Of a stretch of 64,000 bases of DNA, positions 14,658 through 32,895 are shown piece after piece. Each line of letters opens with the position of its first letter. The first letter of the stretch is position 1. The translations under genes were made by a program, and so were the position numbers. This DNA comes from Larkinella terrae (GTDB lineage: Bacteria; Bacteroidota; Bacteroidia; Cytophagales; Spirosomataceae), in NCBI RefSeq assembly GCF_009668025.1, contig NZ_WJXZ01000004.1, forward strand, positions 124,001-188,000, given 5' to 3'. The notes beneath the pieces were generated by a model that saw only the letters and a list, made by a program, of their open reading frames with translations, ran no database searches and had not been told where the DNA came from.

Positions 14658-14750
14658 GGCATCGGGTGCGAATTAGTGCGGGTTGTAATACTACAAAATT
14701 ACGGTGCGCGGGCAGATTTATACCAGCAAAGTAATTAAGCGATGAATAAT

Positions 14751-14851
14751 CCAGTCAGCGGTCGCAGACCCTGACTGCGGTGGATTTGATAGTATTTTCA
14801 GCAATTTGGACGGAAATTTCACCGCAGTCAGGGTCTGCGACCGCTGACTGG
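14751..14851. repeat. 32-bp perfect inverted repeat of REP-like units
   Basis: 14751-14782 and 14820-14851 are perfect inverted copies separated by 37 bp. Each arm is itself a small hairpin: CAGTCAG and CTGACTG at its ends around GCGGTCGCAGACC. The structure is thus two REP-like units facing each other, as in a BIME. It ends 2 bp before the radical SAM stop codon at 14854, so it may also shape the 3' end of that transcript. Confidence 0.85.
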
Positions 14852-14853
14852 GT

Positions 14854-19831: not shown

Positions 19832-19867
19832 AATGAAAAAGACTCCCGATGAGGAGTCTTTTTCATT
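19832..19867. terminator. Bidirectional terminator between NmrA-like gene and ftsZ
   Basis: AATGAAAAAGACTCC (19832-19846) pairs perfectly with GGAGTCTTTTTCATT (19853-19867) around a 6-nt loop. A and T tracts are present on both sides, so it serves both convergent genes. Confidence 0.9.
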
Positions 19868-30938: not shown

Positions 30939-31447
30939 GAGTCTGCTCTATTTATAAAACCGTTAGTCGAAGAGTTGCCGTATCGAAATTAGATAACGAA
31001 TGATAAACCGTTAACCATATGGCACTGAGCTAAGTTTCGTGCCACTTAGTTTTGACTCCAAAAGGGAGGAAGAGTAACGGGTTTTCGATAAAATTATACT
31101 ATAAAGTACAGATCGGAACCGGTTTTTGCGGGTATCATCTTCAAAAAGACTATGTAATACCAGTTGAGCGGGCATAAACCGGTTTACGCGAACGCTCATG
31201 CTGCGAATAGATGGATTCAAAATCGGCTGGTCGCGGAAGTAAAATTCACCTATTTCTTACAACTGGCAAAAAACTGTCCAAATCGACGGACAGAACCGTC
31301 GGTTTTTTGTAGTCTCTTGGCCTTTTCATACGATATTTCAGGTTTTGTATAATATTATTCTGGCAGTTATCATTAGCTTTGTCGTTTTTTTTAGTAAATT
31401 TGATCACAATATATAATACTTATATTATACAAGTCAATAACTATATC
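30939..31447. other. Long non-coding region before the LexA-like gene
   Basis: Noteworthy pieces: TAGTTTTG (31047-31054) fits a -7 box; CGACGG (31284-31289) pairs with CCGTCG (31296-31301) before GTTTTTT, a plus-strand terminator. Together they would frame a transcript of about 240 nt with no convincing ORF. Nearer the gene lie ATAATATTAT (31349-31358) and TATAATA-CTTA-TATTATA (31412-31429), both likely operators, plus TAGCTTTG and TAAATTTG as candidate -7 boxes. Confidence 0.45.
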
Positions 31448-32164
31448 ATGTTCAACGAACCCGGAAAATCTTTTGAAGAGGGTTTAGAGCCGATTCAGGA
31501 GCGGCTGCGGCAAGTATTTGACGCGCTGGAAATCAGTATCTACCAAGCCGCGAAAGATCTTGGTGAGAACTCGTCCAAATTTTACAACATCCTGAACGGC
31601 CGGGCTAAACCGTCGTATGATACCATCATGCGGTTGTTGGAGCAATATCCGCAGGTACGGGCCGACTTTCTGTTGCGGGGTCAGAAACCCGTATTGGACG
31701 AGCCGGAGCAAAATGGAAGGATTATCGAACTGGAGGTGCGTTACATGGATCTCCCGTTTGTACCGACGCGTTTCTACGCCAGTTTCATCGAAACCTATAT
31801 CGAGGGAATCAGCATGGCGCAGATGGAAACGTACCGCGTTCCAGTTCATATGGTCGGGAACCATAAAGAACCGGTCGTGATCGAAGTTTCCGGTAATAGC
31901 ATGACACCCCAATTGGCCAACGGAGCGAAAGTGCTGGCGATTCTCGTGGACCCGAACAATTGGGAGTATCAGTCGGGCGGTATTTATGCCGTGATTTACC
32001 GGGATTTTTTTGTGGTTAAACGTATTAAAGACAATGAGTTGCTGACGAAGCAGCGGTTAACTCTTCACTCCGACAATCCCAATGGCGGCAGCGTCACAGT
32101 TCCGTTGAAGGACATTCGTGGAATCTGGAAAATTGTGCGGGTGATCGATTCACCGGTGGAGTAG
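31448..32164 (+). CDS. XRE/LexA-like repressor with S24 peptidase domain
   Basis: 238 residues. An N-terminal helix-turn-helix (SIYQAAKDLGENSSKFYNIL, about residues 32-51) is followed by a LexA-type S24 domain. The Ser-Lys dyad is visible: Ser in VSGNSMTPQL and Lys in FFVVKRIK. No Ala-Gly self-cleavage site is obvious between the domains. It may be a phage-type or stress repressor. The 18-bp palindrome 19 bp before the start suggests self-control. It stands beside the RAYT islet. Confidence 0.82.
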   Translation: MFNEPGKSFEEGLEPIQERLRQVFDALEISIYQAAKDLGENSSKFYNILNGRAKPSYDTIMRLLEQYPQVRADFLLRGQKPVLDEPEQNGRIIELEVRYMDLPFVPTRFYASFIETYIEGISMAQMETYRVPVHMVGNHKEPVVIEVSGNSMTPQLANGAKVLAILVDPNNWEYQSGGIYAVIYRDFFVVKRIKDNELLTKQRLTLHSDNPNGGSVTVPLKDIRGIWKIVRVIDSPVE

Positions 32165-32175
32165 TTCCTAAAGAT

Positions 32176-32236
32176 GGCCGAATAGTTATAAACCCGTCAG
32201 GTCTTGAAGACCCGACGGGTTTATAACTATTCGGCC
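32176..32236. repeat. REP-like palindrome at the 3' end of the RAYT gene
   Basis: GGCCGAATAGTTATAAACCC... at 32176-32198 and its perfect 23-bp complement at 32214-32236 flank the inner GGTCTT-G-AAGACC. The central 33 bp read AAACCCGTCAG...CGACGGGTTT and match the layout of the element at 32863. The RAYT stop codon (32227-32229) falls inside the right arm. Confidence 0.85.
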
Positions 32237-32831
32237 GCCCTTTCGTGAAAATCAATAAAAATCTCTCGCCCACCAAACCAATCCAACACTTCATTGCGGC
32301 ACAACAGCGTTGTTTTTTCCGAAATCAGTAATCGAAAAGAGGAATACGGCCAACTGCTAATTTTTCTGGAAAATCCGTGTTTAACCGGATTTTGATGAAT
32401 GTAGTAAATGAGCCGTGTGTAATACCGATCGTCGGTGACTTCTTTTCTTTTGAATTGATTAAGGAATAATGCGCCCTTACGTTCAAAGCGTTTGTTGTAG
32501 GCTTTTGAATACGCATTGAAAAAATTTGAAAATTGCTTACTAAGCTGTACGAATAATTTATCTTGCAGAGCCAGCGGTTTTACCGGTTCATGGATTTCAA
32601 AATAGCTTACCAGCTCACCCTCTGCTCTGATCTTACACGGACAAATAAATGGAAGTGATGGGGCATTAAACAGTAAGCGAATGTGTCGACTATTGGAAAG
32701 CAATATTGGGCATATTTTTTTAGAAAGTACTGATAGTTAGCTGGTTCTCGAAATAATAAGTCCGCTCCATTTGCATGATTATAGATATGATAGTATTGTT
32801 CAGGTAGTAGAGGCTGAAGATTAGCGGACAT
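32227..32831 (-). pseudogene. RAYT-type (REP-associated tyrosine) transposase, frameshifted
   Basis: ATG 32831 opens 74 residues with EQYYHIYNHANGADLLF and LMPHHFHLFVRV, the HUH (His-Phe-His) metal motif of the Y1 transposase fold. This frame stops at 32607. The rest continues in the -1 frame: LVSYFEIHEP, QFSNFFNAYSKAYNKRFERK with the candidate catalytic tyrosine, then KEVTDDRYYTRLIYYIHQNP and LDWFGG, typical RAYT C-terminal motifs. One missing base between about 32610 and 32640 would restore a protein of about 200 residues. No classic slippery heptamer is present, so it is called a recent pseudogene or a sequencing error. The region is visibly more A+T-rich than its neighbours and is bracketed by palindromes at 32176 and 32863. 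Confidence 0.85.
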
Positions 32832-32862
32832 AGCTATTTTCGATTTATAATTAGACGTAAAA

Positions 32863-32895
32863 AAACCTGTAAGATCTTCAAGACCTTACAGGTTT
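32863..32895. repeat. REP-like palindrome upstream of the RAYT gene
   Basis: AAACCTGTAAG (32863-32873) and CTTACAGGTTT (32885-32895) are perfect inverted arms around ATCTTCAAGAC. Same 33-bp architecture as the core at 32176: AAACC arms and a central TCTT-AAGA palindrome. Confidence 0.85.

Follow-up and report, generated by a model that had tools for sequence, protein, structure and literature searches.

A frameshifted RAYT gene between two 33-bp palindromes in Larkinella terrae, a probable decayed REPtron-like unit

Results

A broken RAYT gene is flanked by two related palindromes

The window, that is the whole 64-kb stretch of DNA that was analysed (contig C17 of genome G000, positions 124001-188000), belongs to the 7.85 Mb genome of Larkinella terrae. 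The following features are considered here.

32227..32831, minus strand: frameshifted RAYT gene (HUH/Y1 transposase relative), recognised from two overlapping frames and by homologue search
32190-32222, no strand: 33-bp palindrome (core) at the RAYT 3' end, AAACCCGTCAGGTCTTGAAGACCCGACGGGTTT
32176-32236, no strand: 61-bp palindrome that extends the 32190-32222 core, arms of 30 nt, 97% complementary
32863-32895, no strand: 33-bp palindrome upstream of the RAYT, 31 bp from its start codon, AAACCTGTAAGATCTTCAAGACCTTACAGGTTT, one mismatch
14749..14853: two bulged 33-nt hairpins in inverted, REPIN-like arrangement (14749-14781 plus, 14821-14853 minus), of the type found at a second RAYT locus, from a hairpin search

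An earlier note on this DNA had read the RAYT gene without a frameshift. We found the gene to be broken: its HUH motif HHFHLF lies in the minus-strand frame 32831-32607, its Tyr motif YIHQNP lies in the minus-strand frame 32703-32227, and the frameshift falls between the two. The G+C content of the gene is 0.39, compared with 0.51 for the whole window. A Pfam search with the two broken pieces assigned no family, after which the gene was placed as a RAYT relative by homologue search and NCBIfam. A gene for a Peptidase S24/LexA-like repressor (31379-32164, plus strand) converges on it.

The 33-bp palindromes described by the earlier note on both flanks of the gene are real, as a pattern common to both (up to three mismatches) matched exactly twice in the 64 kb and never in 100 shuffles. 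The claim that one of them overlaps the stop codon holds for the 61-bp extension and fails for the 33-bp core, since the stop codon (32227-32229, minus strand) is located inside the former and outside the latter. Within the extension, the final bases of the gene recur inverted across the palindrome centre. A palindrome scan of the window with a score threshold of 13 returned two hits, against none in ten block-shuffled windows: the 61-mer and a perfect terminator-like hairpin at 19832-19867. The copy at 32863, with its one mismatch, falls just below this threshold. As single-stranded DNA both RAYT-flanking palindromes are predicted to fold far more strongly than shuffled sequences (z -5.4 and -5.7). 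The window shuffles together with the reversed-pattern controls, which gave 0 matches, rule out a chance origin of the palindromes.

The enzyme belongs to a divergent family found mostly in Bacteroidota

Using the C-terminal piece of the window RAYT as query, homologues were detected in 49 of 119 related genomes (E<=1e-5). A profile of 35 sequences gave matches in 70 of the 119 (E<=1e-10), although some of these matches are weak and probably belong to other Y1 branches. Among the 586 candidate stretches listed for named genomes, at least 555 encode relatives; the best 80 of these are mostly from Bacteroidota, and some are on contigs labelled as Chloroflexota, Thiomargarita or KSB1 metagenome bins. 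Four loci on contigs labelled as Thiomargarita or Chloroflexota bins (L109, L103, L112, L124) carry a RAYT with palindromes of the same kind, a placement that reflects either transfer or mis-binning.

The residues H58, H60 and Y135 are invariant among 35 relatives, the window copy itself being frameshifted. Scores of seven out of eight relatives lie below the Pfam Y1_Tnp cut-off (23 bits) and those of all eight below the NCBIfam REP_Tyr_transpos cut-off (80 bits), yet their E-values range from 2.6e-12 to 1.5e-18. Significant E-values combined with scores under the curated cut-offs indicate that the relatives are homologous but divergent. Annotation pipelines that rely on Pfam or NCBIfam cut-offs would miss most enzymes of the family. 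When the family profile was compared with the PDB, the sole sequence match was TnpAREP (4er8, E 3.5e-8), and the same entry gave the top fold match (E 1.1e-8) to an AF2 model (pLDDT 92.7) of the intact second RAYT of L. terrae. The W-Q pair of 4er8, which according to the sections of PMC6006769 used here adjoins residues reported to read GTAG, aligns with F-E or F-Q in this family. Of 146 family members, 127 carry NHFH and 90 carry LF[EQ] (loose pattern); the median length is 204 aa, and in 133 of the 146 the G+C content of the gene is lower than that of its flanks.

Hairpin and enzyme occur together and vary together

We scanned 150 loci, 146 of which contain a RAYT and 138 of which have enough flanking sequence. 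A strong palindrome was present within 300 bp of the RAYT upstream in 67, downstream in 63, on both sides in 40 and on either side in 90 of these 138 loci, compared with 13 of 1079 control windows taken from the same loci. Cognate flanking hairpins, a feature of REPtrons, are thus common in the family. Exactly 33 nt is the length of 92 of the 155 flank palindromes; 12 measure 31 nt. The remaining 48 loci lacked a palindrome in the ungapped search, and as bulged elements such as those at the second L. terrae RAYT are invisible to such a search, 90 of 138 is a lower bound.

The sequence words of the palindromes differ from RAYT to RAYT, and in 28 of the 34 RAYTs that have both copies the upstream and the downstream one differ at no more than two of 16 positions. 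In the test that the earlier note had proposed, the palindromes vary with the RAYT sequence: among 81 dereplicated RAYTs half-site distance follows protein distance (Spearman 0.26; Mantel 0/5000 permutations), from 0.14 at a protein distance of 15-40% to 0.53 above 65%. A FastTree tree accommodates the seven half-site groups with 21 changes, where shuffles average 37.3 and 0/200 are as low, although the largest two, each counted by itself, require 13 and 12. Near-identical palindromes accompany related RAYTs across different genera; the nine RAYTs of the GACAACTTTT type, which come from unrelated genera, form one side of a tree branch with a support of 99.

Copies of the L. terrae type (type A) follow the same trend. 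The five genomes with the closest homologues hold 17 (G003), 10 (G006), 13 (G010), 10 (G045) and 0 (G005) copies, and the other 113 hold at most three (Fisher p 6.5e-7, with the five hand-chosen from the homologue search among 118 other genomes and a statistic that ignores genome relatedness). Type A palindromes are thus unevenly distributed among the genomes.

The cognate element is probably a nested palindrome of 33 nt

The cognate element probably consists of two half-sites of 15-16 nt in inverted orientation, which are separated by 1-3 nt and together form a 33-nt palindrome. In the half-site consensus (n=81) A occupies position 1 in 77, A position 10 in 68, T position 14 in 64 and T position 15 in 75 cases, and the rest varies freely. 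Half-sites of the 81 dereplicated RAYTs form 5.38 inner pairs on average, compared with 3.53 +- 0.09 in shuffles. Each half is thus partly self-complementary around a loop of about 3 nt, so that the element reads as a word, a loop and the complement of the word, and then the same inverted. The two halves of the window palindrome face each other in inverted orientation across 1 nt, but a single half is predicted to fold weakly (-1.6 kcal/mol, with 19/200 shuffles as good). The classical REP foot GT[AG]G is absent as a feature, being found in 10 of 156 palindromes and in 8 of 156 nearby control pieces. In effect the element may be regarded as a minimal REPIN that lacks the GT[AG]G guide.

Palindromes also occur inside the enzyme genes. 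They were detected in 19 of 146 RAYT ORFs, always between the HUH and Tyr motifs, and most have 33 bp. The encoded peptides (e.g. DLTGFQNLSGL, DLTTFRKLSNL, TQTGFETLSAL) show that many in-gene palindromes share a reading frame. In several RAYTs (L034, L109) the in-gene palindrome matches the flanking copy.

A second RAYT of L. terrae has a REPIN-like pair in the window

The genome of L. terrae encodes a second, intact RAYT of another branch (C6:1507328-1507915, locus L049). Ungapped palindrome searches around it found none; a bulged 33-mer was spotted by eye and then searched for. This RAYT is bracketed by two pairs of a bulged 33-nt hairpin; all copies are identical, and the members of a pair are inverted and 79 bp apart, which is true REPIN geometry. 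The pair at 14749-14853 in the window, located between two minus-strand ORFs, differs from the L049 hairpins by two to three mismatches, symmetric in arms and copies.

A third Y1 transposase with a strong Pfam match (L001, G000:C18:72071-75415) is encoded among hairpins of the GTCGCGTTAGCGAC type, some of them near TTTGTAGC as read by eye. An exact 14-mer of these hairpins occurs four times in the genome, all at L001.

The hairpins are dispersed over intergenic DNA

With a relaxed pattern (up to three mismatches) we found 21 palindromic copies in the L. terrae genome and none with the reversed-pattern control, so the palindromes are not unique to the RAYT locus. The earlier note had asked whether copies are numerous and intergenic. 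Among 18 copies examined, 16 are intergenic (12 between tandem, three between convergent and one between divergent genes) and two lie in called ORFs; another count with the same simple ORF calling gave 34 intergenic copies out of 36. As to number, 21 copies amount to a dispersed family, but one that is small by REP standards (usually >100 according to the abstract of PMC2817692). The broken window RAYT is the only close RAYT of its type in this genome.

Searches of the 119 genomes detected type A in 13, type D in 11, type F in five, type E in eight and type C in 15, with 0 for the reversed controls. Copies per genome reach 46 and number 1-6 in many. Type F has 45, 46 and 38 copies in three species of genus g13 and one copy in each of two other genomes. 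Several genomes depart from a simple match between enzyme and hairpin. G065 holds 39 type C copies with no RAYT found at E<=1e-10, and G005 has a RAYT and 0 type A copies. The source genomes of type E (G059, G071, G014) hold 2-5 copies, and the type occurs in G038 (6), G068 (5) and G070 (4) where no RAYT with a type E flank was seen. Those of type C (G024, G038) hold five and four copies, and G035 has five type D copies with no D-type RAYT seen. Although G008 lacks a close RAYT, it too keeps a compensated palindrome at locus L014. Together, G065, G005, the type E counts and L014 rule out a strict one-to-one dependence on the RAYT.

Hairpin sites differ between some species and are retained in others

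Comparison of G010 with G045 showed five palindrome loci in common, one of them an array of four copies (70-bp spacing) versus a single copy. About 100 bp with two palindromes are present at one site only in G045, and about 80 bp with one palindrome at another site only in G010. At L286 and L293 the spacers are replaced and the presence or absence of the palindrome is ambiguous. The L288 palindrome is common to both genomes. A 16-bp insert lies near the palindrome centre at L288 and L315; G045 has it in both tandem copies, whereas only one of the two G010 copies carries it. The RAYT region (L291/L298) is 98.2% identical between the two genomes over 672 bp, and the adjoining aligned blocks are 86-88% identical; identity above that of the neighbouring blocks points to a recent exchange of the RAYT gene.

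Eight L. terrae sites were compared with genomes of the same genus. G008, G003 and G006 all lack the copies at L009 and L018, although G005 has a related palindrome at L018; L016 is absent from G008 and G006, and both L006 and L015 from G008. None of the four relatives has the L004 copy, but in two of them a palindrome lies about 50 bp away. G003, the sole genome comparable at L010, has none there, and the palindrome at L014 is present in every compared genome. No target-site duplication was recognised at palindrome sites.

Genus g13 behaves differently: a G020 contig carries 11 palindromes, all of which have a positional counterpart in G048, and 10 of the 11 are matched in G063, one only by the same intergenic stretch. 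These sites are kept between species while the spacers diverge, and the retained sites rule out recent hopping alone for g13.

Changes in the palindromes tend to affect both arms. Among 41 distinct copies from the genus of L. terrae we counted 34 both-arm and 26 one-arm changes, with 11.3 both-arm changes expected if arms were independent; the arm-change rows for type D in g13 are nine distinct, hand-picked sequences. Perfect copies make up eight of 39 in G065 and 10 of 12 in G070. One-arm decay in G065 was seen in the best 17 of its 39 copies; because such a least-diverged subset hides symmetric changes, the comparison uses the perfect-copy counts alone.

Discussion

Domesticated RAYT genes with cognate hairpins have been described before, and the arrangement reported here has been known in outline since 2018 (PMC6006769, in the passages cited). 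There, TnpAY1 subclass 2.6, stated to be RAYT group 5 of Bertels 2017, was noted by manual inspection to be flanked by 'atypical secondary structures' without GT[AG]G that have copies elsewhere in the genome. Like subclass 2.6, our family is mostly from Bacteroidetes and has the Tyr motif YIH[QN]NP. In contrast, the HuH motif NH[LIV]H, the W motif WQ and the median of 179 aa given for subclass 2.6 differ from NHFH, LF[EQ] and 204 aa; judged from the printed motifs, the two agree in part. The subclass 2.6 passages give no design rule for the structures, which in our family are 33-nt nested palindromes. The same source describes REPs in frame within tnpA, generally between HuH and Y, and calls them unique to subclass 2.4. 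The in-gene palindromes of our family resemble these, but the REPs of subclass 2.4 have GT[AG]G feet and the palindromes do not.

E. coli TnpAREP, which cuts and joins its own hairpin as a single strand (PMC8266576, in the part cited), is the closest match by sequence and fold among PDB entries and likewise has flanking and dispersed hairpins (REP/BIME). Our family differs from it by the absence of GTAG, by F-E or F-Q in place of W-Q and by symmetric hairpins that favour 33 nt. TIRtrons or TIRYT (PMC3733652, in the sections cited) likewise comprise RAYT-like genes between inverted repeats without GTAG, of which some are self-complementary and some recur in the genome. They are similar to our loci in this respect; however, their common motif is GGGGWSAS, and neither Cytophagales nor Flavobacterium is named in those sections. 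A search of the open-licence literature found no description of such 33-nt elements. The present analysis adds the fixed 33-nt nested design, the lack of a GT[AG]G guide, the covariation of enzyme and hairpin, the symmetric evolution of the arms and the L049-type REPIN in the window. The system seems to be a Bacteroidota form, so far little described, of a known hairpin-spreading kind.

We propose that the L. terrae locus is probably what is left of a decayed REPtron-like unit, in which the gene for a domesticated HUH/Y1 transposase is flanked by the hairpins that belong to it. The REPtron-like reading given by the earlier note gains support from the dispersed, mostly intergenic copies and from their covariation with the RAYT. 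The hairpins accompany RAYT genes, favour 33 nt, covary with the enzyme, are dispersed over genomes and are present in one species and absent in another, and we infer that the RAYT mobilises them. The palindrome would fold as a single strand, a state most likely to arise on the lagging strand as in relatives of IS200/IS605, and the RAYT might recognise the stem and loop of the folded form. Cutting and rejoining by the enzyme could then yield copies and arrays or occasionally move a palindrome, and some copies may later have been kept for service at gene ends. In L. terrae the enzyme would since have been broken by the frameshift, with the palindrome copies remaining.

Several other explanations were weighed. 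The palindromes might be bidirectional terminators or 3'-end mRNA elements under selection, with the RAYT merely insulated by two of them, which we think unlikely. The positions of type F fit this idea, as 16 of 24 copies on three g13 contigs lie between convergent genes while convergent spacers make up about 13-23% of intergenic DNA, and so does the conservation of g13 sites despite spacer divergence. L014 fits as well: it is flanked by convergent genes in L. terrae and is palindromic there as well as in G008, G003 and G006, with numerous compensated changes in the arms. However, a terminator need not share the word of the neighbouring RAYT, track RAYT kinship or sit in a RAYT reading frame, and 12 of the 18 L. 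terrae copies are between tandem and some between divergent genes. Terminator-like roles may be secondary uses of copies spread by the RAYT.

It is highly improbable that the two palindromes and the RAYT between them move together as one IS-like or TIRtron element, with the palindromes as terminal repeats. The low G+C content of most RAYT genes, the high identity of the RAYT region between G010 and G045 and the near-identical palindromes next to related RAYTs in different genera would agree with such movement. On the other hand, palindromes occur alone, with tens per genome in some cases, the homologue search detected few RAYTs of one palindrome type per genome, and no empty site of a whole unit came to light short of a systematic search. 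We give least credit to an enzyme-free origin as replication by-products, in which quasi-palindromes grow and are symmetrised by template switching. The symmetric extensions into gene ends, with coding bases copied across (the window 61-mer, a 67-mer at L028 and an 81-mer at L021), and the joint changes of the arms speak for this process, but it leaves the 33-nt peak, the same sequence at scattered loci and the covariation with the RAYT unexplained. The lower share of perfect copies in G065 than in G070 also hints against template switching alone. Template switching may well act on elements that are already in place.

The preferred reading of a RAYT with cognate hairpins may, more tentatively, extend to guide-free RAYTs as a family across the whole phylum, with a specificity that would reside wholly in the four-word 33-nt double hairpin (word, loop, complement and inverted again). 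Each enzyme lineage would have its own word, some with a copy of the substrate in frame in the gene. Both arms would be acted on together and changes copied across, enzyme and hairpin drifting to new words as a pair.

The reading of hairpins by REP transposases is known mainly from GTAG-tagged proteobacterial systems. A guide-less branch with dozens of enzyme lineages and matched hairpins is a resource for finding out which residues recognise which bases. It also provides natural experiments, namely hairpins after breakage of the enzyme as in L. terrae, hairpins where the enzyme was not found as in G065, and genomes with both. The family further bears on whether short palindrome families, their arrays and their symmetry are maintained by domesticated transposases.
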